DNA of 32,166 bases, taken from positions 1 to 32,166 of IMG/VR virus record IMGVR_UViG_3300025120_000285; one strand, written 5' to 3'. Positions 1,120 to 29,830 of the stretch are shown in pieces. Source of the stretch: a virus. Positions within the stretch are counted from its first letter, which is position 1. Every line of letters begins with the position of its first letter. A program made the translations under genes and the position numbers. A model generated the notes under the pieces. It saw only the letters and a program-made list of their open reading frames with translations. It was not told where the DNA came from and made no database searches.

Positions 1120-2939
1120 AGCCGAGTAAAAGAAAATTTCAACAGGGAGGGTCCTACGAGAACAAGACAGACTTCGTTCTTAAGCCGATGGACTATGCTG
1201 CCCTTGGTGCTGGCTATGATGAGATGACTAGGAAGCGCCTTGCAGAAATAGACAGGGCGGAGAAGGAGCAAAGAAAGAAGGACCTTGAGGGCATCAAAGA
1301 CCTTGAGGCTCGCCCTAAAGTCATGGAGCGCCTTAACAATGGGCTTCAGAGTGCGTATGACGTATGGGAGGACGCAAGGATAGAAGCAATCAGCAACCCT
1401 AGTCCGGAGAACAAACAGGCGGCAGCCAACGCTTTTAATCAGTACACCACCTTCAAAAACGAGTCGGTTGCTATTACTACGAACTACGAAAAAGAGCTTA
1501 ATGCTGTCTCAACGGGCAGTCTAGATGCAACACTAATTGACAACAGAGCAAACGCTCTTAAGCAAGCTAGAGACTTTGACACAGAGGTTCCTGTTCAAGT
1601 TGTAAACGGCAGGGTACTAATGGCCAATGCAGAAGGTGAGTTTGTCGACTGGACACAGAGCACTTACTTTAACAGAAGTTCTTTTGGACAGGATGGTCGT
1701 AACTTTTTGGCTATGCGCAAAGCGCCGGGGACAGACTTTATGTTTGCACCTAAGTCAGAGATGTTTGCTAGAGAAATGACAGCCGACAACGGCATCTACA
1801 AGATGTCAAATGGTAGAAAAAAAGGATTGGACGAGGTCGCTGTAGGTAAACAGATAGAGCAGAGATTTAGAACAGAGTTTACTTCCAATCAGGCAGACAT
1901 CATAGAGGCTATGACTGCTGAGTATGGAGCAAAGCAAAAGGGTGTCACTGCACTAAACCCTGAGCAAATGCTTGAGGCCGACGCAAATTACGGTGACCCA
2001 AATGGAAGTTTGTATGGCAACGTGGTTTTGCAAGACTTCAACATTGTCTACAAATCACCCGAACAGTCTGAAACTGAAATGGGTGAGTATGAGGTAGTGT
2101 TTAATTACGACCCTCTTACCCGTAGAAAAGTTGACGGCAGTCTTGAGTTCAGCAGGGAAACCGCGTCAGCTCTTAAAAACAGACAGAACGCCCTGAAGTT
2201 TCACTTAGAGAACCTTGCCAACCAGACATACTTTAAGCTCAACAATCAGTATCAGCCAGACCCGCAGTCAGATGCGGATGGTATTGGGTTCAAGAAAGGC
2301 GACTCTATTCCGCGGCCTATGGAGCGACAGCTTATGACTGAACTTGGTGGCGTTAAAGACGACAACGGCAAAGCTGTCAAGGGGGCTTACTACACCTTCC
2401 GAGGCAATGGGTTGAACTTGCGGTACAAGGGCGGAACGGCTAAGATTACAAACATTCAGTACGGCCCTGAAGGCAATCCATTTGCGTTTGAGATTGAGTC
2501 TAATCGAATGAAGGATGATATCAGGAATGCTCTCACCGACGAAATAAAGTCTCGTAATGACCGAGCTAATAGGCTTACAACACAAGTAAGCAATGAAGTT
2601 GATGTTACCGAAAGAGCAAGGCTAAAAGAAGAAGCGCAAGAACTTGAAACACAGATTGATGAGCTTACTGAACAGAGGAAAAAGTTTAGCAAGGCGAAAG
2701 CGTCTTTCATCATTGACAAGGACAATAAGTATTTTGGGTCTGAGATTTTCAAAGCAGGCTCGTCCCAAGACATCCCCGGATTTATTGAGATTCTTGCTAA
2801 TTTGTTGCAGGATGAGCGAGCATTGATGATAGAGATTGAGAAACAAACGGGAGGCACTGTTGTCACTGGAGGTTCTGAGGAAGATTCCGTACCTTCGCAA
2901 AGTGGAGGAGCGATGTCTGGATTTAACACAACAGAATGA
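1116..2939 (+). CDS. Putative virion protein, mid-size internal-core-like (607 aa)
   Basis: No family is recognised. The 607-residue soluble protein has no signal peptide or membrane segment. The N-terminus carries a basic stretch with QQGG (about residues 8-11), a motif shared with other proteins of this phage. Residues about 35-70 are strongly charged and helical. The region about 465-535 is a long charged coiled coil rich in Glu, Lys and Arg. The C-terminal tail is Gly/Ser-rich. The start overlaps the upstream stop as ATGA and its own stop overlaps the next start as ATGA, so the three genes are probably translationally coupled. Between a small and a giant virion protein it occupies the place of T7 gp15. 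That assignment is inferred. Confidence 0.85.
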   Translation: MKPSKRKFQQGGSYENKTDFVLKPMDYAALGAGYDEMTRKRLAEIDRAEKEQRKKDLEGIKDLEARPKVMERLNNGLQSAYDVWEDARIEAISNPSPENKQAAANAFNQYTTFKNESVAITTNYEKELNAVSTGSLDATLIDNRANALKQARDFDTEVPVQVVNGRVLMANAEGEFVDWTQSTYFNRSSFGQDGRNFLAMRKAPGTDFMFAPKSEMFAREMTADNGIYKMSNGRKKGLDEVAVGKQIEQRFRTEFTSNQADIIEAMTAEYGAKQKGVTALNPEQMLEADANYGDPNGSLYGNVVLQDFNIVYKSPEQSETEMGEYEVVFNYDPLTRRKVDGSLEFSRETASALKNRQNALKFHLENLANQTYFKLNNQYQPDPQSDADGIGFKKGDSIPRPMERQLMTELGGVKDDNGKAVKGAYYTFRGNGLNLRYKGGTAKITNIQYGPEGNPFAFEIESNRMKDDIRNALTDEIKSRNDRANRLTTQVSNEVDVTERARLKEEAQELETQIDELTEQRKKFSKAKASFIIDKDNKYFGSEIFKAGSSQDIPGFIEILANLLQDERALMIEIEKQTGGTVVTGGSEEDSVPSQSGGAMSGFNTTE

Positions 2940-5900
2940 ACGAACAGGCTATACAGACGATGTACCAACTCGCTCAAGCGGAAGGGTACAATAATTCAAT
3001 AGACGACTTTATTGCACTGATGGGCTCTAACCCTGAGGCTGTTCAGGCTATGTACAGCATAGCTAAGACCGAAGGCTACAACAACAGCATTGAGGACTTC
3101 TCGACGCTGATGGGTGTAAAAAAAAAAGAAGACACTTTGGTCTCGGAGCCTCCTTTGGAAACGGCTTCTACGGAGTCTACCTCAGCTGCAGCTCCTCAAC
3201 CACAACAAGAACTTGGAGATACGGATTCTACTACGGTAGAACCAGTTGAGCCTAAGCAGGAGGATGTAACTCTACCCCTGCCCGGCAGCGACGACTTTCT
3301 CTTCTACAACTTTAACCTCCCACAGGAGGAGGTGGCGGCAAGAGCTGCTATCACGGGCGAGCAGCCTGAGATACCACAGGACTTTGAGATTCCAACGGAG
3401 CTGACCCCTGTTGCTACTCGTGGCAGGGAGAGTGAGATTGCTGTTGCTGACCAGTTTGAAAGCCTTACAGGAACAGATGTATACAGAAAAATCTTGCAAG
3501 CCGACCGGGCAGAAAGTTTTTTGTCTGTATCAGGGGACGAGCTTGACAAGGCTGACCTCGCTGCTGCCGCCAATGGTGATGTATTCTATCAAAGCGCAGA
3601 GCTAGACCTTCAGCTTACAGAGACGGGCGACTTTGAGGCTGACTTCCTAGCTCAGCTCGACGCCGAAAGAGTGCTTAAGCAAAAAAGAAAAGACTCGCAG
3701 TTCGACCTAGCAAGCATCGAGGATGAGTTTGTAGAAGTCATTGTTGGCGCAAGCTCAGCCGGGTTGGAGGAAGGAGAGTTCAATAAGGTCAGGGACCTAA
3801 AAGAACAGTACACTCAAGTGCTTCCCAAGGAGTACAGAGAGAACGTAGAGAAGCTTGATATTCAAGGCTTTGCTGCTCTTGTAATTAGAAACAAACAAGA
3901 CCGCAGTTGGGCCTCTGCCGCTATTGGCATGGGTGGCTTAACAGAAGACGAGCTTAACGCTAAGATGGGAGAGGGTATGGGCGCTCGTGATGCCATCAAA
4001 GAGCTTCAAAGCATGGACCTTACCTCCCCTGCTTGGAATAGATTTACGCTGCCTTGGACTAAGTTTGTGAGCAACTCCCTAGATGGCATTCAGTTTGCGA
4101 AGGGAAAGCAAGAGGAGGCTGTAGAGGCAAATCAAAGAGACAAGGAGCTTACTGAACTAGCCCTTGACATCAAGCGTTCAGGCCGAGAGGCTACAGATGA
4201 AGAACTTGAAAGGCTAGGCAGTGTCATGTACGGCACAGACTATAGCGGACTGAAGTCTTTGATGGGTGAGGTAACAGTGCCCTCAGTCAACAATAGGAAC
4301 GCTGCCTCTGTAAGAAGACGGGTAGGTAAGGAGATGCTTGGCATGGATGAGTCATCTTGGGAATCTGTTTTGGACGAGGTTAATTACAGCGAGGCTGTTA
4401 CTAGTAGAGCGGCTTACGACTACAACAGGGGAACCTCTCACAGGTCAGGATTGACAGAGCTCATCGACAGGGGCATCATGAGTAAGGAGGACTACGACAA
4501 GTCAGCCACACAGCTTTTTGGAGAAGGTAAAGTATCTGAAGGTTTGTGGAAGACATGGGGTTTGTTTTCTGATGTACTGCCCGACCTCACTAAAGCTGTA
4601 GGTACTACTGCTGGGGTAACATATCTTACTGGCAACCCTGCTACCGGACTCGCTGCTGCTGCTGGTTTGTTTGGTATTCAGTCAGGAGGTGATGCTGCTG
4701 GTGAGTATGCGAGTAGGCCCGGTATCACTGGAGAAGAAGCATTAAGCGTAGGAGCTAAGGTTGGAGCTATTGAAGCAGGTATGACTCTTGCTTTTGGCGG
4801 AATGGAGCGTGCCTTGGCTACTGGATTGCTTAAGAACTTAGGTAAAGAGATTGTTGAGGAGACCAGCGAGGCGGCAGCAAGAAGTGCTTGGAGTCAATTC
4901 ACAAATACAGCATTTGGACAAACTGTAAAGAGAGTGGGCGCAGAGTCTGCAGAAGAACTCTTCATTGCAGCGGGCGACCAGATTGTCCGAGTTCACAACG
5001 AGGTAGCCAGTGGGCGTATGACCCTTGGCGAAGCAAAGGAAAGGTACTACAACCCCTACGCTATTGGCGATGCTGCTCTTGGTGGAGCACTGGGTGGCGG
5101 GGCTGGTAGCACGCCCATGGTTCTGTCGAGGGGCTTCAGTGCCATCGGCTCTAAGTTTACTATGTTCGACCGGATTAGATTCAACGTCAGAAACATTGAG
5201 CTCCGTACAGAACTAGCTGACGAAAACACATCTCCTGAAAGAAAGAACGCTATTCGAGCAGAGCTTGCTAAGCTTGCCGAAGATGCCAATAGACTTGAGC
5301 GTAGAGACATGGAGTTCTACGAGCAGATGTCGGAGTCCGACCAACAGCGACTGGTGCAGTTGAACCAAGAGATTAGCAGGCTGCGTATGATTCGTCAACG
5401 TGAGTCAAGTGATGCTGAGAGAGCTGAGGCCGCTGCGTCAGTAAGAACTCTTATGGAGGAGAAGCTTGGTATTGAAAACAAATACGATGCTGCCAACGAG
5501 GGCTTTGACCTAGACACGCACAGCGCTACTCGTAACGAGTCAGAGACGCAGAGACTTGTTGATGAGGTGCTGAGTACAGACAAGCAGTTTGACAAAAGAG
5601 GCCTTGGTGTCCCGGGAGTAGAGCAGCTGGCAGGAAAGCTTAGCCTAAGTAAGGAGGGCGTTGAGGGGATGCTTTCTCGTGTGCTTGCAGAAAACATTAC
5701 CAGCACAAAGTTTGCTACAGCTGAACAGATTCGTGATGGCATCGTCAATGCTTTTAATCTTGCCAAAGCTATCATTGAAGAGAACCCAGACGCCGAAGTT
5801 GTTCTGGTCAATTCAATAGCTGGGCTAAGAAGGGAATCAGGGGACCCTACTAGAAAAGTAAGTAGAGGCGTTCACGTCTCAGTAACTCGTAAGGGCGACC

Positions 5901-8900
5901 CCTCCTCCACAGCGCCATCAAAGATTATTCTGTATGTACCAGCGCTAAAAGCCAACACAGCGTATCACGAAGGATTTCACCAGCTTGTTTATAGAGCATT
6001 GGGTGGTGACTCAGACGCTGCAATGATTAGACTTTCTTCTGCTATCAGAAGGGGTATGCCCAAGCTGTTGCTTGCTAGATACAACAACTTGTTAAGTCAG
6101 TATGAGAATTTGTCAGAGGCTGAGCTTGCTGAAGAGTTTTTGGCAGAGGTATACGCTGACATGGCCAACGGAACTATTGGTATAGAGTACCACAAAGGAG
6201 TTATCAGTAGCGCTGTAAAGTTCTTAAATGAGTTTCTAGTTGCCAAAGGCATCAAGATTAAGACCTCACCAACCATTTTGGACGTGATGTCTATGGTGGA
6301 GGATGCTGCTGCGCTTATGGGTAGAGGAGAGACAGGTTCTGGCAAACTCATTTCAGAGGCCTTAGAGGGAGCCAAATCACTTCGTCCCGGGTATTTGACC
6401 AGAGAAGGGAGAACGTCCAACAGAGAGCTCCGTAGGGTGCGTAAAAGAGCTGCTGAGAGTGCGGCGACCTCAGTGTCCGAGACAGAATCATCTGTAAGGG
6501 CACAGGCCCTTGACCCAGAAACCATCGAGGTGGTGTCTCACAACAAGGGCAACAGAGCTCAAGTAGCTAGAGAGATTGCTGCAGACTATACCGATGCGAT
6601 TCAAGCACACAAAGCTGCAGGTACTGGGGTAGAGTTGCAACTCAGTCAGGTCACCAGAGAGCAGGCAGAAAGCATGCTGGAGGATGGAGCTACATTCCTG
6701 AGGGCTGACGGAGTAATCGCTTACGTAGATAAGGATGGTTACGCTGGCGGTCTTATCAAGAACCCAAACTCTAGCGCAACAGGTGTTATCCGTGGGGTGA
6801 CAAGAAAGTGGCTAGAGAACGGAGCTACTCACCTCGAAGCATACGCTACCTTCTTAGAGCCAGCGTACATGAAAGAGGGTTTTGTTCCTGTAGCTAGACT
6901 TAAGTTCGATGAAAACCTTGCTCCTGAAGGCTGGGATGCAGAAAACTCTCCGCTTAAGGGCAGACCTGACCTCGTGACATTTGCCTACGACCCTATTGCA
7001 GCTGCATTGGCTAAGCCGGGTGATGGACAGTACATGTCCGAGTATGTAGATGCACTCAACGAAGCTCGTGACAGAGGCGCAAGGATTCTCAATCCGAACA
7101 TTAAAGAGCAAGCCACTTTGTTCAACGAAGAGGATGCAAACGCAATCAAGGAGAACGATGGGCAGGTTATTGGTAGTTTCTATGAGCTTCTTGCAAAGAG
7201 GTCTGAAGAAGGAGATGGCGCGGTGTACAGATACAGAGGATTCTTTGCGGGTGCGTTCCAAGGCAGGATGATTTTTATTGATAACCAAATCCCCACAACT
7301 CCTGAGGGAGCGGCGGATAGGCACGTTGAGTTTGTCTTTAGACCCTTAGACGAAAAGAAAAAGATAATTAAACTTGACGAGTGGTTTGTCAACAAGGCCA
7401 TGGACGATAAGGGTAATCTCATCAAGGGCAAGGAGAACAGGGGTAGCGGGCTTGGCACTCGTTTCCTAAACTTGGCTATGGAAGTAGCGGATGAGCTTGG
7501 CATCGACGTCCAGCTCATGGCTTACCCTACAAGAAACTATCAGGGCACCGAAAGGCAAAACATGGCTGCGGCCAAGAAGCTTGTAAAGTACTACCAGAAG
7601 TTTGGCTTTGTAGAGCGCTACAAGAGCGGTGAGTCAATGGTTCGCGTGGCGAAGAACAACCTTGACCAGCTAGACGCAGAGGAAACACAAGCAACACAAG
7701 ACCTAGCTAAGGGAGTTAAGTCCCAAGCCATTGAGGCTACCCTTCAGTTTAAGACAGACACGGGACGTAACTGGAAGGTTCGTAGAGAGTTTAGCGATGA
7801 GAAACACATTCAGAACTTTATCAACTACATTGAGAAGAAGAAGGGTTACACCTTAGATGAGAGATGGACGCACCCCGCTCCTCCTGATGTAGACCCTGAA
7901 TACGTTGAAAGACCAGATGTAAAGTCGCAGGAGATTGCGGTTGACATGATTTCTCAAGAGGTGCCATCAGACATGACCCGCTCTATTCAGGTAGCAAGGG
8001 TTATGAATACATGGGCCGACAGCCCTGTCTCTATAGATGAGAACGCTATGATTGAGCGGTTCTTGAACAACGTCTACGAAGAGGCCGGCTTCTACATGCT
8101 TAATAGAAAAGCAGACAGCTCTGGTATTACTTGGTACAAAGAAGACATCGAGTCTGCAAAGAAAAAGCTTGCCATCATCTATCCTGAGTTCAACACTGAG
8201 GAGATGCAGAGTGTGGCCATGGCGCTTCTTGCTGTGCTTTCACCGGGCAACTCTCCCAATGGGAACATGACTACCCTTGCTGCGGTCCTTAACTCTACAT
8301 CAGCAGACCAGATTCCAAGAGGAAACTTTGCTAGAAACTGGGGAGGAGACAAGCAGAGCTTTGTAGACAAGAAAGGTAAGTCACTTGCCAGCGGTAGGAT
8401 TGTTAAAGAAACCAAATCACACTTCTATGTTCAGGGTGTAGATGCCTTGGGCAAGGACAGCAAGTATCAAAGCGGTAAAAACTTCTTGGTGAAAATTGCC
8501 AAGAACAATTTGAAGGAGGGCTACCCCAAGCCAACAGGATTTACTCAGAGAGGTAAGATTGTGGCTACACAGCTTGACAAGCTTGAGTCTGTATTTAAGG
8601 ACTTCGTCACCCCTAAGGCTGTCATTGACTTTCTTAAGAGCGACCAACCTATAGCAACCCTTCGTAAGTACAACCCAAGGGTTCCGGACACAGCGGGAAA
8701 GGTCAACAAGAATCCTGCTCCCGGTAGACGTAAAGGGGCTTACATCTTTGGAGAAAAGGTAGGTAGCTTCTTCTTGAATCTAGAGGGTATGGGTGAGTCC
8801 TTGACTGCTGACCTGTGGTTTAACAGAACATGGAACAGATACATGGGCACCATGATTGAAGGTGTCGTAGGTTCTGAGACAATCGTAGAGGTACCTCGCA

Positions 8901-11900
8901 GCGAAGCGGAAAGAAAAATCATGGCTCGCGCTGTAAAGGAGGCGGCTCAAACCTTGGGGTTAGAGGTGTCCGAGATGCAGGCTGTGATGTGGTACTTTGA
9001 GCAAGAGCTATGGCGCTCTATGGGGATGAACACACGGAGTGAGAATTACAACAACGCAATCGACGAGGTTGCATCAAGACTTGAATTAGACGATGCTACA
9101 AGACAAAGATTATCAGAAGCTGGTGTCAACCTTGACCCGGCTGAAAAAAGAAAAGCGCTTGCCGTCTCTAGAGCAGATGCTCAAGGTGTTAGCCGCTATG
9201 TCGAACGACAAGAGCCGGGGACCAAAGTAAAGGCACAGCCAATAGATGCGCTGCCAAATCCCGGGGAGACCCCCAATGCAACTTGGAAAATGCTTTCTGA
9301 CGCAGGCATCTTGTTGCACGGAACCCCTGAGAGTTTTGCTGAGTTCGACGACGCAAAGGCATTTCGTCCTAATGCGCCCGGGCTGCATGGGCTAGGCACG
9401 TACCTTACAGGTAATGTAAAGAAGGCGGCTGCGTACGGGGAAAACGTCGTCTACATCGACTCAAGCGGGTTGAGGTTGGCCAACATGTACAACTTCCGAA
9501 TGGGGGCTGTGGTGACTGAGACCTTGAATAGTATCAACAGAGGCGACGCAGAAAGCTACGTTGCAATCAAAGAGATTGCGAGAAACACCCGAAGGTCCCG
9601 CTTCCAAAGAACAGGCAAGTCTCTTGGTCTTGAGAGTATTATTGCCAGAAGCCCTGAGACATTTGTAGAGATGGTAATTACCGAGACTGCAAATGCAATG
9701 CGAGACGCTAATGTGCAGCTGGGTAGTGGTCAAACTACGATTGCCACACTGCAGAAGTTGATGTACGGCGACGACGGATTCGAGAGCCCTGCTGTTCAGG
9801 CCTTGATTAGGTTCTCAATGACGATAAACAGCACCGAGTCCGACGATGCAAGGTTTATTTCTAGCCCAGAGTCAAGGGCAGCTAGTTTGCTTACAGGCAC
9901 CGACATGTCAGAAGCAGTACTTGTAGCTAGAATGGCGTTTGTAGAAATCATTCGCCGCTCTGGCTTTGACGGCTACTACTTCTCCAACATGCTAGACGTC
10001 GGCTATAAAGGCTACGCAAGCAGAGCAAAGGAAGGATTCCCTTCGCCCCCTACAACGATGGACCGATTCGGACGGCGCGATAAGTTCTTGGAGAGAAACA
10101 CGGAAAAAGACCATGCTACAGACTCGTCCTTAGAGGTGGCTGGCATTGACGTTGGGTCACGCCGCACAGGGATTCAAGAGGCAGTCATTGTAAACACAGA
10201 AAGACTTAATGACCTTATCATCCCTGCGGACAAAGTTATTGAAGCTGCTCAGTCTAGAACGCAAGGCGAAGAAGGCACCACCAAAGCTCAAATTGTTGAG
10301 GGTTTGATTGATGACCAAGCTAAGGAAAACGAAGAGTTCCTTGCGTCTATTGACAGACCCGTGCCAGTGACGAATCCCGAGCAGCTAGGTAGAACAAGTA
10401 GAATCTTGCTAGACCTACAAGAGTTCTTCCAAGACAAGTTCGCTAAGGTTTTGTACGTGCAACGCGCAATCGAAAAGGGTCGTGGAAGACGTGTGTTTAG
10501 AGAGCAGGATTACGACATGGCTCTCGCTCTTATGGACGGTAGAGCAGCAGGTAAGATTAAATCTGTTGATGCCTTTATGCAGGATGTAGCTAAGTCATTG
10601 CGTATCAATAAGATAAGCCTTGATGATATCGGCCAGTTCTTGTATGCGATGCACGCTCCAAACAGAAATGCAGTGCTGGACTCTCGCAAGAAGAGCGAGC
10701 TCAAGAACATAGAGCAAAAGCTTTCTGACATGCAGGAGCAGCTCAAGGTCAAGGGCATGGAGGTGGGTGCTAAGAGAAAACTGGCAAAGCAAAGGAAGGA
10801 GCTTCAGCAAGAGTACGACAGAATCCAGAGGCAAATCGAAGAAGGCAACTTCTCCGGAATGACTAACGACGATGCCGCAAAGATTGTATCCGACCTTGAC
10901 TCCGAAGGTATGCGCATGTTGTACAACAAGATTATGGATTTCCAGTCAGAGACTAGGAGGTTGATTGTTGAGTACGGCTTTGAGACGCAGCAGACAATTA
11001 ACGCCTTAGAGAGCACGTTCCCCAGCTATGTACCGCTCAGTGGTTTTGCTGTAGACGAATCTCTTGACGCGGGCTACACGCACATGCACCAAGCCAGAGT
11101 CTTCAGTGAAATGAAGAGGGCTGAGGGTAGACAGACTGAAGCGGCTAACCCGCTCGACATGATTTTTGCAAGGAGGTATCAAACCGTTATGGTAGGAGAG
11201 AAGAACAGAGCCAATGTTCGCTTGTTGAACTTGCTTGCATCAAACCCTCAACCAGACTTGTACAAAATCTACGGGCCTAAAGACAAGGCCCCAATGTCTG
11301 AGTCTAAGATGAGGTCGGCTGACAGTCCTTTTGTAGAGGTAGTAGTCGGAGCCAAGTCTTTCTTTATTGAGTTTGCTAACGAGGGTATGGCAAGGGCTGT
11401 TAACGGACAGAACGTCTTGACCGTCGGGGACAACAAGGCTGTGCAAAGAATCTATCAGTTCATCAGAACCTTCGGTAGGTTCATGTCTGCCAGTTTTACA
11501 AGCTACTCTCCCGACTTTATGGGGGCCAACTTCGTACGTGATATCCAGACTGGTGTGATGTCGTTGATGGCAGAACAAGAGATTGTAGGAGGGCAGGCTT
11601 TTGGTGTAAACATTGTAGGCGATGCGGTTAAGGGTGTTCGCCCAGCATTCAGCTACTTGGCTAAGACAGTGGTGGGGCAGGTTGACACTAGCTCGGACCC
11701 TCTGTCTAAGTACTGGCAGGAATATCAGGACGAAGGCGCAATCACAGAGTGGCCCTACCAGCGCAGCCCCGACCAATACAAGGATGACATTGACGTCATC
11801 GTAAGGATGTCCAACAAAGAGCAGTCCGCCGCGATTACAGCCAAGAGAGCGGTAGCGGCTTTGGACAGATACGTCGGCGGGACAAACCAAGCGATTGAGA

Positions 11901-13213
11901 ATGCAACAAGATTCTCTGTGTTCGTTGCAGCAAGAAAGGCTGGCATAGATGCAGAGCAAGCAGCGTTCCTAGCAAAAGAACTCACTGTAAACTTCAACAG
12001 AAGCGGAGCAGGGGGGTCAGTGGTTAACAGTTTGTACCTCTTCTTCAACGCTGGCGTTCAGGGTACAGCCAAGTTCTACAGAACACTATCGTCTCTGCAG
12101 CAGATTCCTGATGGCAGGGGTGGATACTACAAGAGACTTAACTCTGCTCAGAAAGCGGCAGCCGGTATGACGATGTTTGCTTTCTTTCAAGCAGCACTCA
12201 ATGATGCCTTTGGGCCAGAGGATGATGACGGAAGAACATTCTACGAAAAGATTCCTGACTACGTCAAGGAGCGCAACATGCTTTTTGTAAATCCATTTGC
12301 TAACAAGCCAAAGGGTCGTGAGGCTAAATGGGAGGACTACTACTTCAAGGTTCCTCTGCCCTACGGATACAACATCTTCCACAACATGGGGGCAGCTACG
12401 TACGATGTGACTATGGACTACAGGAGCCCGGGCAATGCAGCTATGTTTATGACTAGCGGTGTAGTAAACAGTTTCGTGCCTGTGTCGTTTGGTCAATCAA
12501 GTAGCTTTGACAAGCAGACCTACAAGGCCCTGACGCCTACTATGGCTAGACCCTTTACGGAAGTAGTCATCAACGAGAACTACTTTGGTACTCAAGTTTA
12601 CAAGGAGCCATTCCCCGGGGAAGAGGTTGCGGATGCTTCGCTTTCGAAGCGAGGACCTGAGTGGTGGAAGGATACGTTTAAGTTTATCAACGAAGCCACT
12701 GGCGGTAATGAGTTTGAGTCAGGAGCTCTTGACGTAAACCCAGACAAGCTGTGGCACATCGGGGCCTACTGGACTGGTGGTACAGGTAAGTTCATCGACC
12801 GAACAGCGAACATAGGTAGAGCTGCTATGGGTTATGATGACGACAGGGACTGGAATCCTAACGACTTCCCTCTCGTAAGAGTGTTCTTGGGTAGTCACAG
12901 CGAGTTCCAAGACATGGCTGACTACTACAAGTTCCGCTCAGATGTAAACGCAAAGGCCAAGGCTGTCAAGGAAGGCGTAGTTGGTCAAGACACCAAGGGA
13001 TACGAAAGCGTAAACGTGCTAAAGGATATTGGTTTCAAAGTGGACAAGCAGCTTAGACAGGTCAGAAAAGACCTTGACTACGCCAAGAAGAATATGGAGG
13101 AGCCAAAAAGAACTAGAGTAATCAACGACTTAGAAGAGAGCAGAAGGATGCTTCTTCTTAACTACAACAAACAATATTTGAAATATGTCAAAGGAAGGAC
13201 GGACCTCGATTAA
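2936..13213 (+). CDS. Giant polyvalent virion protein (3,425 aa): metallopeptidase, GNAT-like, ART-like and LPD38-like regions
   Basis: Probably a virion protein delivered into the host with the DNA. Order seen: two tandem 26-residue repeats (5-30 and 35-60); a Pro/Glu-rich linker; a Gly/Ala hydrophobic stretch (about 546-620); a coiled coil (about 765-850); a zinc-peptidase motif HEGFH (1011-1015) with a downstream EEFLAE (1066-1071); a GNAT-like region with the KEGF...FDENLAPEGWD block (about 1300-1335); a second GNAT-like region with the acyl-CoA loop RGSGLGT (1502-1508) and YYQKFGF; a conserved phage block KVGSFFLNL (about 1941); an ADP-ribosyltransferase-like region with LLHGT (H2128), GTYLT (Y2156) and a terminal E2415 strand; a coiled coil (about 2583-2638); and a C-terminal helical region resembling LPD38 (about 2780-3290). 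The domain names are from remembered family patterns. It is far larger than T7 gp16 (1,318 aa). Codon use is uniform and no frameshift was seen. Confidence 0.93.
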   Translation: MNEQAIQTMYQLAQAEGYNNSIDDFIALMGSNPEAVQAMYSIAKTEGYNNSIEDFSTLMGVKKKEDTLVSEPPLETASTESTSAAAPQPQQELGDTDSTTVEPVEPKQEDVTLPLPGSDDFLFYNFNLPQEEVAARAAITGEQPEIPQDFEIPTELTPVATRGRESEIAVADQFESLTGTDVYRKILQADRAESFLSVSGDELDKADLAAAANGDVFYQSAELDLQLTETGDFEADFLAQLDAERVLKQKRKDSQFDLASIEDEFVEVIVGASSAGLEEGEFNKVRDLKEQYTQVLPKEYRENVEKLDIQGFAALVIRNKQDRSWASAAIGMGGLTEDELNAKMGEGMGARDAIKELQSMDLTSPAWNRFTLPWTKFVSNSLDGIQFAKGKQEEAVEANQRDKELTELALDIKRSGREATDEELERLGSVMYGTDYSGLKSLMGEVTVPSVNNRNAASVRRRVGKEMLGMDESSWESVLDEVNYSEAVTSRAAYDYNRGTSHRSGLTELIDRGIMSKEDYDKSATQLFGEGKVSEGLWKTWGLFSDVLPDLTKAVGTTAGVTYLTGNPATGLAAAAGLFGIQSGGDAAGEYASRPGITGEEALSVGAKVGAIEAGMTLAFGGMERALATGLLKNLGKEIVEETSEAAARSAWSQFTNTAFGQTVKRVGAESAEELFIAAGDQIVRVHNEVASGRMTLGEAKERYYNPYAIGDAALGGALGGGAGSTPMVLSRGFSAIGSKFTMFDRIRFNVRNIELRTELADENTSPERKNAIRAELAKLAEDANRLERRDMEFYEQMSESDQQRLVQLNQEISRLRMIRQRESSDAERAEAAASVRTLMEEKLGIENKYDAANEGFDLDTHSATRNESETQRLVDEVLSTDKQFDKRGLGVPGVEQLAGKLSLSKEGVEGMLSRVLAENITSTKFATAEQIRDGIVNAFNLAKAIIEENPDAEVVLVNSIAGLRRESGDPTRKVSRGVHVSVTRKGDPSSTAPSKIILYVPALKANTAYHEGFHQLVYRALGGDSDAAMIRLSSAIRRGMPKLLLARYNNLLSQYENLSEAELAEEFLAEVYADMANGTIGIEYHKGVISSAVKFLNEFLVAKGIKIKTSPTILDVMSMVEDAAALMGRGETGSGKLISEALEGAKSLRPGYLTREGRTSNRELRRVRKRAAESAATSVSETESSVRAQALDPETIEVVSHNKGNRAQVAREIAADYTDAIQAHKAAGTGVELQLSQVTREQAESMLEDGATFLRADGVIAYVDKDGYAGGLIKNPNSSATGVIRGVTRKWLENGATHLEAYATFLEPAYMKEGFVPVARLKFDENLAPEGWDAENSPLKGRPDLVTFAYDPIAAALAKPGDGQYMSEYVDALNEARDRGARILNPNIKEQATLFNEEDANAIKENDGQVIGSFYELLAKRSEEGDGAVYRYRGFFAGAFQGRMIFIDNQIPTTPEGAADRHVEFVFRPLDEKKKIIKLDEWFVNKAMDDKGNLIKGKENRGSGLGTRFLNLAMEVADELGIDVQLMAYPTRNYQGTERQNMAAAKKLVKYYQKFGFVERYKSGESMVRVAKNNLDQLDAEETQATQDLAKGVKSQAIEATLQFKTDTGRNWKVRREFSDEKHIQNFINYIEKKKGYTLDERWTHPAPPDVDPEYVERPDVKSQEIAVDMISQEVPSDMTRSIQVARVMNTWADSPVSIDENAMIERFLNNVYEEAGFYMLNRKADSSGITWYKEDIESAKKKLAIIYPEFNTEEMQSVAMALLAVLSPGNSPNGNMTTLAAVLNSTSADQIPRGNFARNWGGDKQSFVDKKGKSLASGRIVKETKSHFYVQGVDALGKDSKYQSGKNFLVKIAKNNLKEGYPKPTGFTQRGKIVATQLDKLESVFKDFVTPKAVIDFLKSDQPIATLRKYNPRVPDTAGKVNKNPAPGRRKGAYIFGEKVGSFFLNLEGMGESLTADLWFNRTWNRYMGTMIEGVVGSETIVEVPRSEAERKIMARAVKEAAQTLGLEVSEMQAVMWYFEQELWRSMGMNTRSENYNNAIDEVASRLELDDATRQRLSEAGVNLDPAEKRKALAVSRADAQGVSRYVERQEPGTKVKAQPIDALPNPGETPNATWKMLSDAGILLHGTPESFAEFDDAKAFRPNAPGLHGLGTYLTGNVKKAAAYGENVVYIDSSGLRLANMYNFRMGAVVTETLNSINRGDAESYVAIKEIARNTRRSRFQRTGKSLGLESIIARSPETFVEMVITETANAMRDANVQLGSGQTTIATLQKLMYGDDGFESPAVQALIRFSMTINSTESDDARFISSPESRAASLLTGTDMSEAVLVARMAFVEIIRRSGFDGYYFSNMLDVGYKGYASRAKEGFPSPPTTMDRFGRRDKFLERNTEKDHATDSSLEVAGIDVGSRRTGIQEAVIVNTERLNDLIIPADKVIEAAQSRTQGEEGTTKAQIVEGLIDDQAKENEEFLASIDRPVPVTNPEQLGRTSRILLDLQEFFQDKFAKVLYVQRAIEKGRGRRVFREQDYDMALALMDGRAAGKIKSVDAFMQDVAKSLRINKISLDDIGQFLYAMHAPNRNAVLDSRKKSELKNIEQKLSDMQEQLKVKGMEVGAKRKLAKQRKELQQEYDRIQRQIEEGNFSGMTNDDAAKIVSDLDSEGMRMLYNKIMDFQSETRRLIVEYGFETQQTINALESTFPSYVPLSGFAVDESLDAGYTHMHQARVFSEMKRAEGRQTEAANPLDMIFARRYQTVMVGEKNRANVRLLNLLASNPQPDLYKIYGPKDKAPMSESKMRSADSPFVEVVVGAKSFFIEFANEGMARAVNGQNVLTVGDNKAVQRIYQFIRTFGRFMSASFTSYSPDFMGANFVRDIQTGVMSLMAEQEIVGGQAFGVNIVGDAVKGVRPAFSYLAKTVVGQVDTSSDPLSKYWQEYQDEGAITEWPYQRSPDQYKDDIDVIVRMSNKEQSAAITAKRAVAALDRYVGGTNQAIENATRFSVFVAARKAGIDAEQAAFLAKELTVNFNRSGAGGSVVNSLYLFFNAGVQGTAKFYRTLSSLQQIPDGRGGYYKRLNSAQKAAAGMTMFAFFQAALNDAFGPEDDDGRTFYEKIPDYVKERNMLFVNPFANKPKGREAKWEDYYFKVPLPYGYNIFHNMGAATYDVTMDYRSPGNAAMFMTSGVVNSFVPVSFGQSSSFDKQTYKALTPTMARPFTEVVINENYFGTQVYKEPFPGEEVADASLSKRGPEWWKDTFKFINEATGGNEFESGALDVNPDKLWHIGAYWTGGTGKFIDRTANIGRAAMGYDDDRDWNPNDFPLVRVFLGSHSEFQDMADYYKFRSDVNAKAKAVKEGVVGQDTKGYESVNVLKDIGFKVDKQLRQVRKDLDYAKKNMEEPKRTRVINDLEESRRMLLLNYNKQYLKYVKGRTDLD
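2948..3115 (+). repeat. Tandem 26-residue repeat at the N-terminus of the giant protein
   Basis: Two copies at 2948-3025 and 3038-3115 encode the pattern A-x-Q-x-M-Y-x-x-A-x-x-E-G-Y-N-N-S-I-[DE]-D-F-x-x-L-M-G. They are separated by four residues and followed by VKKK. Protein identity between copies is high. The repeat could be a short helical address or docking tag, as similar N-terminal GY...F..LM repeats occur in large proteins of Bacteroidota phages (recalled, not checked). Confidence 0.85.
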
Positions 13214-27714: not shown

Positions 27715-27819
27715 TTAAGAGTTTTGGTAGTATGAAACGAGAAGGCCGAAGATGAAGAGGAGGGCAATGCACAATACGTACAAAGCCACTCCGTAGTCCG
27801 TGGGTTCAAGGTGAATCAT
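27715..27819 (-). CDS. Membrane microprotein (34 aa)
   Basis: The 34-residue product has an acidic N-terminus (MIHLEPTDYG) and a hydrophobic span (VALYVLCIALLFIFGLLVSYY). The start is in an ATGA overlap with the upstream gene, which supports translation. It is the third of the small single-span proteins in this unit. Confidence 0.6.
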   Translation of the reverse strand: MIHLEPTDYGVALYVLCIALLFIFGLLVSYYQNS

Positions 27820-28106
27820 TTGTTCTGCTTAAGGAGTTCGATACGCTCTACCTCGTTAGCCTCAAGCATATAGTCCTCCCACTTCTTGGAGAAGCTATCA
27901 ATCTGCCACTCCTCCGTGATGGTGACGGCCATAGCATCGAGGAACGTGTGGTCCTCCTTGAAGGTCCGTACGTGGATGGTGATGACAGGGGTGGAGGGGT
28001 TCCAATGGTCCCAACGCATCGAGGGAGAGTGTCCCTTCATCGTGAGCCAATTCATTGCATTCGAGATGGTTTGAGCCTTCTCAAGGCTGTAAACTACATT
28101 GTCCAT
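27816..28106 (-). CDS. Hypothetical protein (96 aa)
   Basis: A 96-residue product, Trp-rich (NWLTMKGHSPSMRWDHWNP), with a probable alpha/beta fold and an acidic helical C-terminus. No family recognised. It is preceded by a stem-loop and the leader CAAACCTTAA shared with the two genes upstream. Confidence 0.78.
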   Translation of the reverse strand: MDNVVYSLEKAQTISNAMNWLTMKGHSPSMRWDHWNPSTPVITIHVRTFKEDHTFLDAMAVTITEEWQIDSFSKKWEDYMLEANEVERIELLKQNK

Positions 28107-28148
28107 AGTGTATGGGGTTTAAGGTTTGATGCAGACCCCCGAAGGGGT
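28107..28148 (-). promoter_or_regulatory. Leader with ACCCC-TTCG-GGGGT hairpin and CAAACCTTAA
   Basis: On the minus strand a 5-bp stem with a UUCG loop (28148-28135) is followed by CTGCATCAAACCTTAA and the ATG at 28106. The part CTGCA-TCAAACCTTAA recurs after the tRNA-like element at 28338, suggesting a common leader module. Confidence 0.5.
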
Positions 28149-28167
28149 TTCGTCCATTCAGGACTCG

Positions 28168-28317
28168 TCAGTGCATCTTGATTGGGCCGTGGTGGCCTTT
28201 GGGGAGTAGGTGTCCATACTTGCACATCTTGTCAGCGCACCGCTTTGCGGCTACTCCTGTTTCTACACCTCGGTCGAGGTCTTTGCTCATCTCACGGAGG
28301 ATTTGGAAATTGGTCAT
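28168..28317 (-). CDS. Small basic Cys/His-containing protein (49 aa)
   Basis: A 49-residue product starting MTNFQILREMSKDLDRG and ending KMCKYGHLLPKGHHG plus a short tail, with two cysteines and several histidines that could bind metal. It is supported by its position 20 nt after the tRNA-like element, in a leader like those of its neighbours. No family recognised; moderate confidence that it is translated. Confidence 0.5.
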   Translation of the reverse strand: MTNFQILREMSKDLDRGVETGVAAKRCADKMCKYGHLLPKGHHGPIKMH

Positions 28318-28337
28318 CTCTATTGAATTAAGGTTTG

Positions 28338-28401
28338 AGGTGCAGGGGGAGTCGAACCCCCGACGTGAATCCTTTTCATAACACGTCCTCCAAGTACACC
28401 T
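28338..28401 (-). ncRNA. Truncated tRNA-like element 1 (acceptor and T arm kept)
   Basis: On the minus strand AGGTGTA pairs with TGCACCT (7 bp, one G-U). GGGGG-TTCGACT-CCCCC is a perfect T arm. The 33 nt between them are too short for normal D and anticodon arms. Instead GACGTG pairs with CACGTC around a 14-nt loop. Total 64 nt. No CCA is encoded. It lies 9 nt after the 149-residue gene and 20 nt before the 49-residue gene. Confidence 0.65.
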
Positions 28402-28410
28402 AACGATGAA

Positions 28411-28860
28411 TCAGGCAGTCAACTCCGCAACCATATCACCTGCAATCTGCTCCTCAAGGCCTGCAAGCAGGTCCTCGACAGACACCTCTACAGGTTGCTC
28501 GAGCAGGAACTCCACCACAGCACGGATGCGGAGGGCGAAGGCACGCTTGGCCTTGGGTGTGTGGCCTACCTTGAAGGTGGCCTGCAGACGCTCCTCGATG
28601 TCACGCATATCAATCGTGGTCTTGCCCACATTGAACTTGAGCAGGACAGGATGCGAGAGGTTGGCGAAGCGAGCACCCGTCTGCTTCTGCAACGAAAGGT
28701 AGCGGAACAAGCGGTTGAGCATCGTGCCTACGACGACGTCGCGCTCTGTCTTGGAATTGGTAGTCAACTCGTAAGACATAGTGAAGTGGTTGGACAGGGC
28801 AACTTCGTTGTTGCCGCGAGTAGTGTTGAAGGCCTGAAAGGCCGTAGCTGAAAACTTCAT
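28411..28860 (-). CDS. Hypothetical protein (149 aa) flanked by tRNA-like elements
   Basis: From the ATG at 28860 the product has 149 residues (MKFSATAFQAFNTTRGNNE...). It is mixed alpha/beta with a helical C-terminal half (ALRIRAVVEFLLEQPVEVSVEDLLAGLEEQ). No family recognised. An upstream in-frame ATG at 28920 would read through a tRNA-like element and is rejected. The gene is bracketed by two shrunken tRNA-like structures on the same strand, and its leader has a GTGCC-ACA-GGCAC hairpin followed by CAAACCCTT. It is the first protein gene after the tRNA-Arg on this strand. Confidence 0.8.
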   Translation of the reverse strand: MKFSATAFQAFNTTRGNNEVALSNHFTMSYELTTNSKTERDVVVGTMLNRLFRYLSLQKQTGARFANLSHPVLLKFNVGKTTIDMRDIEERLQATFKVGHTPKAKRAFALRIRAVVEFLLEQPVEVSVEDLLAGLEEQIAGDMVAELTA

Positions 28861-28888
28861 AGAACAAGGGTTTGTGTGCCTGTGGCAC
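28861..28888 (-). promoter_or_regulatory. Leader hairpin GTGCC-ACA-GGCAC with CAAACCCTT
   Basis: On the minus strand a 5-bp hairpin (28888-28876) is followed by ACAAACCCTTGTTCT and the ATG at 28860. It has the same order (hairpin, CAAACCyTt, ATG) as the leaders at 28107 and 28318. Confidence 0.45.
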
Positions 28889-28895
28889 GGGTTAG

Positions 28896-28956
28896 TGCAA
28901 CGGGTGGGAGTCGAACCCACACCATCCTACCGAGGACAGCACGCCTGTGCCGTTGC
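28896..28956 (-). ncRNA. Truncated tRNA-like element 2 (mini-cloverleaf)
   Basis: On the minus strand GCAACGG pairs with CCGTTGC (7 bp), GTGGG-TTCGACT-CCCAC is a perfect T arm, and the 29 nt between fold as ACAG-GCGTG-CTGT and TCCT-CGGT-AGGA. This resembles a cloverleaf whose D and anticodon arms have shrunk. The total is 61 nt with discriminator A and no encoded CCA. No usable anticodon loop remains. Confidence 0.68.
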
Positions 28957-29756
28957 TACTGCGTGGTGGGTGGATAGCCCCACAATCCCAAGCTGGCTTG
29001 TATCACGCAGTGTAGTCAAATTTTGTCTTGTAATTCTTCCCCCATCCCAACTCCGATGGCCACAGACGTGGCGGGTTTTGTCGGCCCAAGTGGTAGGTAG
29101 TTTCAGTATGTCAAAGAACTGCGCTCTTCGGTGAGTGGTGTGTGCCCATCCTGCTTTCTGCATACAGGGTGCGAGGTTCCCCTACGTGAGGGGGGCGGTT
29201 TAGTCAGCCGCAGGCAGTACGTCAATAATCCAAGGGGCGGTTGCCGTTGCAACACGAGAGCCATAGTAGTATAGGGGGGTTGAGCCACCAAATTGTCAAG
29301 CGACATTTCGACAGAGAGTATGATTCACCCGACGAACAGCCAAATAGCTTCGACGAGAAAGTCAGGATTTTAACATTTGTGTGTTTGCACAGGTCGGAAA
29401 AATGTTGTAGACGCGCATATCAACCTTCGTGCCAAGTGCTGATTTACCAGGGTTTGGTGACCCCATCTTGGGGGGGTTTGGGTGAGCCTTCCGAACTGGT
29501 GGTGAGGTTGTCCCGTTGGTCTGTACTACTGCCTGTGGTGGGACCTCGAATCCATACGGCAGGACCTATGGCAAAACGCTGAAAGTTTAGGCGTGCCTAA
29601 CTCTGACAAGCACCCCCCTACCCTCTGGCAATGCGTTTCCGTTCCGCCCGACCCGCGTGTACATACATATATAATCCCCACACTCTGTATGTCTGAGACT
29701 TTTTTCGCCACTGTACCTCATCGGGACATGTATGTGTTTCCTTTTTGGACTGGCTG
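28957..29756. other. About 800 nt without a convincing gene
   Basis: No frame here looks like a protein on either strand. It contains short inverted repeats, for example GTGGG...CCCAC at 28965-28983 and CCATA...TATGG near 29551, and G-rich runs. It lies between tRNA-Arg and tRNA-like element 2, downstream of the leftward promoter, so it may be transcribed as a long untranslated RNA. I found no further TAnnTTTG box for the minus strand in it. Confidence 0.6.
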
Positions 29757-29830
29757 TACTCTCGGCGGGACTCGAACCCGCAACCGACAGCTTAGAAGGC
29801 TGTTGCTCTATCCGGTTGAGCTACGAGAGC
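29757..29830 (-). tRNA. tRNA-Arg (UCU anticodon)
   Basis: A canonical cloverleaf: acceptor GCTCTCG/CGAGAGT, D arm GCTC...GAGC, anticodon arm ACAGC-CTTCTAA-GCTGT with anticodon TCT, five-base variable loop, T arm GCGGG-TTCGAGT-CCCGC, discriminator A, no encoded CCA. It would read AGA and AGG codons, and AGA is visibly frequent in this phage's genes. A consensus promoter lies 13 nt upstream. Confidence 0.95.

Follow-up and report, generated by a model that had tools for sequence, protein, structure and literature searches.

What are two tRNA-like structures that have no anticodon loop doing between the protein genes of a virus? The window, by which we mean the whole stretch of DNA analysed, corresponds to a single IMG/VR virus record (IMGVR_UViG_3300025120_000285; 32,166 bases), and a first-pass annotation had described two such structures in it, each with a 7-bp acceptor stem and a perfect T arm, bracketing one leftward gene of 149 residues. 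Both elements, here called TLS1 and TLS2, fold as described and are selected in relatives. On the minus strand the order is tRNA-Arg(TCT), a noncoding stretch, TLS2, the 149-aa gene, TLS1, a 49-aa ORF, a hammerhead and a 96-aa gene, with the following locations:

29756–29830, minus strand: true tRNA-Arg(TCT), upstream and in the same direction (ARAGORN, Rfam)
28957–29256, minus strand: structured, conserved noncoding RNA of ~300 nt, ending at TLS2
28897–28956, minus strand: TLS2, tRNA-like element, 60 nt
28861–28896, minus strand: leader of the 149-aa gene, 3′ of TLS2
28411–28860, minus strand: 149-aa gene, between TLS2 and TLS1
28338–28401, minus strand: TLS1, tRNA-like element, 64 nt
28318–28337, minus strand: leader of the 49-aa ORF, 3′ of TLS1, with the sequence CAAACCTTAATTCAATAGAG
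28168–28317, minus strand: 49-aa ORF, between TLS1 and the hammerhead; not in relatives
28128–28177, minus strand: type I hammerhead ribozyme (by sequence), stems 6/4/6, before the 96-aa gene
27816–28106, minus strand: 96-aa gene after the hammerhead; its homologues in relatives follow TLS1

The limits given earlier were correct for TLS1, whereas the paired part of the second element is 28897–28956 and base 28896 is an unpaired base past the stem. The reported spacing of 9 and 35 nt also held, TLS1 lying 9 nt past the stop codon of the 149-aa gene (and 20 nt ahead of the 49-aa ORF, 28168–28317) and TLS2 lying 35–36 nt ahead of its ATG. The leader of the 149-aa gene contains a small hairpin, GTGCC-ACA-GGCAC, which changes in step among relatives. 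Elsewhere in the window, 2936–13213 (plus strand) is taken up by one ORF, which at 3,425 aa is very large for this record.

TLS1 consists of AGGTGTA, 33 nt, GGGGG-TTCGACT-CCCCC and TGCACCT, so arranged that the acceptor AGGTGTA/TGCACCT encloses a CTTGGAG loop, an inner hairpin GACGTG/CACGTC and the T arm. TLS2 consists of GCAACGG, 29 nt, GTGGG-TTCGACT-CCCAC and CCGTTGC, with the acceptor GCAACGG/CCGTTGC, a mini D hairpin (CAC-AGGC-GTG), a second arm with the loop TCGGTA, and the T arm. The two share the 7-bp acceptor stem, a T arm without mismatches and, in the D-like loop, a GG. As had been claimed, they are not ordinary tRNAs: neither ARAGORN nor Rfam at its gathering threshold (RF00005) called them, the sole tRNA being that at 29756–29830, and of the RF00005 features they have the 7-bp acceptor, the 5-bp T stem and the T-loop consensus but no 7-nt anticodon loop with U33 on a 5-bp stem (the loop is 14 nt in TLS1 of the window, 3 to about 40 nt in relatives, and the 6-nt UCGGUA in TLS2 of the window and L007). 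At the two sites Rfam in permissive mode gave tmRNA and tRNA-Sec matches alone, all sub-threshold. The tmRNA reading (RF00023; 22.7 versus 47 bits) was rejected, as the alignment covers just the T arm plus a few bases and there is no tag region; a tmRNA-like pairing between the 3′ strand of TLS2 and the first GCAACGG, with which the noncoding RNA begins, was set aside, being explained by the local hairpin GTTGC-AACG-GCAAC. The mascRNA/menRNA type of layout (short D hairpin with two G's, one longer arm, T arm and acceptor, nearly linker-free, in 57–61 nt) was found in TLS2 and in L273 530–587.

Folding energies of the elements alone were −24.1 kcal/mol for TLS1 (z −2.0) and −26.8 kcal/mol for TLS2 (z −1.7), and at z about −2 the energy by itself is weak evidence. 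When 60 nt of flank was included on each side, the acceptor pairing was often dropped by the energy model (probability 0.00–0.97), with the T arm retained more often; true tRNA-Arg genes of the same set were alike in this test (0.01–1.00, mean 0.51). A strict acceptor and T-arm scan gave 5 matches in 3.56 Mb of reversed strands, corresponding to ~0.1 expected per window by chance, whereas the window has two such matches 500 nt apart.

Homologues of the 149-aa gene were found on ten IMG/VR contigs (67–79% identity), and TLS2 was located 34–35 nt ahead of the gene in 10/10 of these and TLS1 behind it in 8/8 contigs that reach beyond it. An eleventh, L038, has the gene's end as well as two tandem TLS1 copies, with a short stretch (L038 284–370) lacking a clear ORF between these copies. 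In relatives TLS1 lies 22–23 nt before the next gene and is thus the leader element of that gene, so the notion of a pair bracketing one gene had to be given up. The acceptor, a CUUGGAG-like loop and the T arm of TLS1 are kept in relatives, while the part from acceptor to T arm varies from 20 to 55 nt and its closing helix, always kept, occurs as GACGC/GCGTC, GATGC/GCATC, GACGTG/CACGTC, GAGG/CCTC or GGGG/CCCC. Among the 11 TLS1 sequences 95% of cells pair, with a score of 0.365 versus 0.129 for shuffles and 0.01–0.14 for slid versions. Double changes occurred at 11/17 pairs versus 2.2 ± 1.2 in shuffles and were distributed over the acceptor, inner and T stems, which includes the compensating changes in acceptor and T stems proposed earlier as a check, although these counts come from alignments fitted to the model and are biased towards it. 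The TLS1 helices were recovered unaided by RNAalifold. All cells pair in TLS2 as well (5 distinct rows), with double changes at 2 pairs, and RNAalifold in part favoured an alternative around the junction; since TLS2 is more uniform, its case leans more on sequence conservation and layout. Because the elements are conserved and show compensating changes in relatives, we regard both structures as real. Searches of IMG/VR with exact DNA patterns of TLS1 and TLS2 gave, outside the same phage group, spurious stemless matches only, and sub-threshold R1 matches in coding regions (L031 1027–1093, L081 12812) were dropped after inspection.

Most of the argument about function is carried by three features absent from the first-pass annotation, namely the hammerhead at 28128–28177, the RNA at 28957–29256 and the interchange of elements. 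The hammerhead, GATGCA-CTGACGAG-TCC-TGAAT-GGA-CGAAAC-CCC-TTCG-GGG-GTC-TGCATC, has the type I core (CUGANGA...GAAA), a U-H cleavage site, with the cut predicted after GUC, and three stems with stem I open, and the same features were found in L119, L151 (three copies) and L158. Its score was below the Rfam gathering score (25.7 versus 56.3 bits, RF03152), as was that of an L151 copy (28.1 versus 34 for RF00163), and the strict hammerhead scan gave zero matches in reversed controls. The stop codon of the 49-aa ORF sits inside the hammerhead core, and the 3′ flank of the hammerhead, CAAACCTTAAACCCCATACACT-ATG, is near-identical to that of TLS1 in relatives, CAAACACTTAAACCCATACATT-ATG. The 96-aa gene is preceded by the hammerhead in the window and by TLS1 at the same place in seven relatives, indicating that TLS1 and the hammerhead exchange at one leader.

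The same exchange was seen in a distant pair of phages, G034 and G035, whose primase is 53% identical to that of the window. In G034 (L121), a TLS (ACTGCCG-CTCGGAG-TGCC GCAA GGCA-T arm-CGGCAGT) stands immediately ahead of a ~500-aa gene, whereas in G035 (L119) the TLS of G034 is followed by a 32-aa ORF, a hammerhead and then the ~500-aa gene; a 502-aa gene has a hammerhead ahead of it in L119 and a TLS in L132/L193. The plan of TLS, small ORF, hammerhead and gene is therefore common to the window and L119, and the operon may gain new genes in the form of cassettes that combine an ORF with a cutter, with these two as examples. L256 and L308, picked by their hammerheads alone, have TLS, 142-aa gene, hammerhead and gene. 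In G034/G035 the ~900 nt before the TLS (L119 12600–11750, minus strand; L120 end/L121 start) are alike with little coding sign, and are perhaps another large noncoding RNA.

The RNA at 28957–29256 (~300 nt) is unannotated, conserved in nine phages and without a match to any Rfam family. Its alifold energy was −71 kcal/mol versus −36 ± 5 kcal/mol for shuffled columns, with double changes in 17/68 pairs. The last domain, CGCCATG...CATGGCG in relatives and changed in step in the window, stops about three bases before TLS2, so that a cut by RNase P there would leave this RNA with a closed 3′-end helix.

Elements of these and other kinds were found ahead of genes in other phages. In L056 and L065 a TLS lies 19–20 nt before an Erf-like gene, most homologues of which have no element; L114 has three TLS candidates ahead of genes, and L098 has a homologue of one of them. 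In several relatives a true tRNA-Arg lies 14–16 nt before the ATG of a 203-aa gene, and before weak homologues of this gene in L181, L189 and L153 the tRNA-Arg is replaced by a minihelix of ~41–44 nt (GGGCGCATGGTGC...TTCGATT...), which was also found before a related gene in L160 and closely resembles L114 7442–7482 and L275 1952–1992. L151 has three hammerheads, each 15–22 nt ahead of an ORF. The hammerhead pattern scan gave at least 173 distinct hammerheads at at least 120 loci, and among the matches listed, 165 had enough sequence around them; an ATG ORF of ≥40 aa began within 60 nt of 146 of these 165 (88%, median distance about 19 nt), versus 28% of random same-strand positions. Four TLS occur in the listed hammerhead loci, each 20–37 nt before an ORF, including the mascRNA-like L273 530–587. 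The TLS sequences of different phages (window, L119, L256, L273, L275) are wholly different. We see about even chances that RNA punctuation is widespread in phages, with decoding-free tRNA mimics, true tRNAs and hammerheads as exchangeable 5′-leader modules that yield single-gene mRNAs and with mascRNA-like shapes reached by convergence.

Three further RNA-like sequences came up in these loci. A conserved RNA of ~190 nt, CTCTACCTTGTCGGGTGAGGTGGGATAACCAGTC ... GTTATGGTTATCAAAGACTGAC plus a small hairpin, lies between tRNA-Arg and the next gene in L143, L155, L173, L176, L185, L147, L149, L145, L153, L181 and L189, and had no Rfam match in the four loci searched (L143, L155, L145, L189). A tRNA-like element of 76 nt, TCGGAAG..TTCAAGT..CTTCCGA, occurs at L160 9148–9223, L181 9166–9241, L189 1768–1843 and L152 14972–15047, with a possible arm CAAG-CTTATAC-CTTG (would-be anticodon UAU), and in L181 and L189 the minihelix is directly 3′ of it. 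In Curtobacterium phage Nonagon (L322 1450–1533, annotated as tRNA-OTHER) an odd tRNA-like element lies 28 nt before an ORF start and may be the same kind of element in an actinobacterial phage.

Among named phages whose primase resembles that of the window, most infect flavobacteria (Flavobacterium, Cellulophaga, Maribacter), which suggests that the virus of the window likely has a Bacteroidota host. The window primase found no relative among GTDB genomes with a single query, and only two MAG contigs with the alignment, and the 149-aa gene had no carrier among named phages. Maribacter phage Panino has a TLS candidate (PP540027.1:4941-5031), unannotated and not called by ARAGORN, in a gap between genes, where it lies 9 nt past the upstream one and 22 nt ahead of CDS0023. 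In Flavobacterium phage elemoB, a type III hammerhead (MT497068.1:19025-19079) precedes the start of an ORF by 14 nt. Panino grows on M. halichondriae and elemoB on BAL314. Panino, which is cultured, and the Flavobacterium elemo phages make the punctuation model testable in culture.

Taking together the structure, conservation, covariation and position observed and the replacement of elements before orthologous genes, we consider it probable that a leftward polycistronic early transcript is cut into single-gene mRNAs at TLS2, at TLS1 and at the hammerhead, which would serve as interchangeable cleavage points; co-transcription, cuts, enzymes and benefit are what we infer. One leftward early transcript would span the structured noncoding RNA and several genes. 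TLS1, 9 nt past a stop codon, and the hammerhead, whose core contains one, should both be internal to transcripts from the genes upstream, provided that no promoter is concealed within a coding region; the operon gaps bearing a TLS (9 nt from the stop, 20–36 nt to the start) are too small for much else. The TLS elements appear to retain just the features for RNase P and RNase Z, i.e. the T loop, the acceptor stacked on the T stem, and two G's able to form the elbow. The 5′ side of the acceptor would be cut by host RNase P, producing the end of the upstream RNA, and RNase Z would cut directly after its 3′ side, so that the new mRNA has a short leader, in most cases poor in G, such as AAACCUUAAUUCAAUAGAG-AUG, while the hammerhead would cut without a host enzyme. 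The benefit would lie in having separate mRNAs, each open at its 5′ end and structured at its 3′ end. Among the ideas of the first-pass annotation, that of RNase P/RNase Z substrates is thus the best supported, with the cuts predicted from sequence. Some points speak against the model: no element is visible at many genes of these operons or at some orthologues of the genes that are punctuated; the first acceptor pair is an A.A mismatch in most TLS1 copies of relatives; and no TLS1 copy encodes the 3′ CCA, which helps bacterial RNase P.

Other readings have to be weighed against cleavage. The elements could be uncut structured 5′ leaders whose tRNA shape contacts the ribosome or host proteins and thereby steers translation or the stability of the mRNA, and their position 20–36 nt ahead of start codons and the survival of the T arm over the acceptor in in-context folding are consistent with this. 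We think it unlikely, as a self-cleaving ribozyme replaces TLS1 before the same gene and cutting is the sole activity that the two would share; moreover, the length of the inner hairpin varies freely, and the elements, if cut, would leave the coding mRNA. Strict retention of the T loop, the elbow G's and the acceptor might instead mean that the product is the released tRNA-like RNA itself, a small stable decoy or regulator acting on tRNA-directed defence, the CCA enzyme, RNase P or tRNA-modifying enzymes, much as mascRNA is a stable small RNA with proposed functions of its own (PMC9777231). Against this, which we rate as quite unlikely, the sequences wholly differ between phages, there is no anticodon, a hammerhead replaces the element, and a trans-acting RNA needs no site just before start codons. 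Such a role would nevertheless be compatible with processing. Decoys had already been suggested, and those for anticodon nucleases are unlikely because there is no anticodon loop; other decoy roles share the estimate just given.

Origin from ordinary phage tRNAs by loss of the D and anticodon arms, also raised in the first-pass annotation, is possible for some elements given the tRNA-Arg and other true tRNAs nearby. As an account of TLS1 and TLS2 it is largely refuted and now very improbable: a full tRNA stands at their place in 0/11 relatives, where full-length tRNAs had been proposed as the finding to look for, compensating changes occur in all stems, several unrelated layouts retain the same parts, and the length of the inner part ranges over 20–55 nt while its helix is always kept. 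The 3′ parts of tRNAs are classic attachment sites, and the stems are GC-rich and lie in intergenic gaps, so a role at the DNA or transcription level, as attachment sites, terminators or antitermination signals, was also considered. There is no T-run after the stems, both acceptor strands covary, which is needless for an attachment site, and hammerheads replace the elements, leaving this role hardly credible.

The role of hammerheads in phages has been an open question, the purpose of one hammerhead arrangement in a prophage being called unknown in PMC3088659. That a tRNA mimic can take a ribozyme's place ahead of one and the same gene bears on this question and points to a shared role, a cut just ahead of the start codon. 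If the cleavage model is true, phages make mRNAs via host RNase P and RNase Z, the TLS elements rank with the smallest processing tags that occur naturally in bacteria, and an explanation is gained for many of the odd sequences in phage genomes that resemble tRNAs.

Phage hammerheads (PMC3088659) and ribozymes beside phage tRNAs (PMC10879173) are already known. Hammerheads occur in phage intergenic regions, several of them in one Agrobacterium polycistronic RNA and cleaving in E. coli, and have the core of the window element; the available part of that report (PMC3088659) contains no description of tRNA-like elements swapping places with them. Theta (HDV-like) ribozymes adjoin tRNAs of phages, some of which are thought to infect Bacteroidota, and were proposed to trim the 3′ trailer of a working tRNA (PMC10879173). 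There, too, a self-cleaving ribozyme and a tRNA are neighbouring processing elements, but in the window and its relatives ribozyme and mimic substitute for each other before mRNAs. We found no description of such replacement in the open-licence literature, and earlier work may exist elsewhere.

An acceptor stem with a T stem-loop suffices as a model substrate of RNase P, and phage C4 RNA, the TYMV tRNA-like end and tmRNA are non-tRNA substrates (PMC11143913), having, like the TLS elements, tRNA-like folds in non-tRNA transcripts. The GG loop, one arm and T arm of TLS1 recall the tRNA-like domain of tmRNA; unlike tmRNA, the TLS elements have no tag frame and serve as leaders of coding genes. 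The human tRNA-like mascRNA and menRNA, parts of the MALAT1 and MEN-beta transcripts, are cut by RNase P and RNase Z, and, linker-less and with a short D hairpin, are still cut since the elbow is formed by the T loop and two G's of the D loop (PMC11693755). TLS2 also has a 7-bp acceptor, almost no junction linkers and two D-loop G's, follows a noncoding RNA as they do, and has closely matching positions (D hairpin 8–17 versus 8–18 in mascRNA, arm 18–35 versus 19–33, T arm 37–53 versus 34–50). It differs in belonging to a bacterial virus, in standing upstream of protein genes and in being interchangeable with a ribozyme; the resemblance that we propose is one of working, with cleavage predicted and kinship not claimed.

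The TLS elements would therefore be placed, by analogy, with mascRNA maturation and tRNA punctuation, while membership of the tRNA or tmRNA class fails by the tests above. In animal mitochondria, tRNAs between genes mark the RNase P and RNase Z cuts that separate polycistronic mRNAs. The phage, too, has tRNA-shaped elements between genes; in contrast to the mitochondrial ones, most of them lack decoding parts and ribozymes can replace them, so that punctuation would be their sole job.
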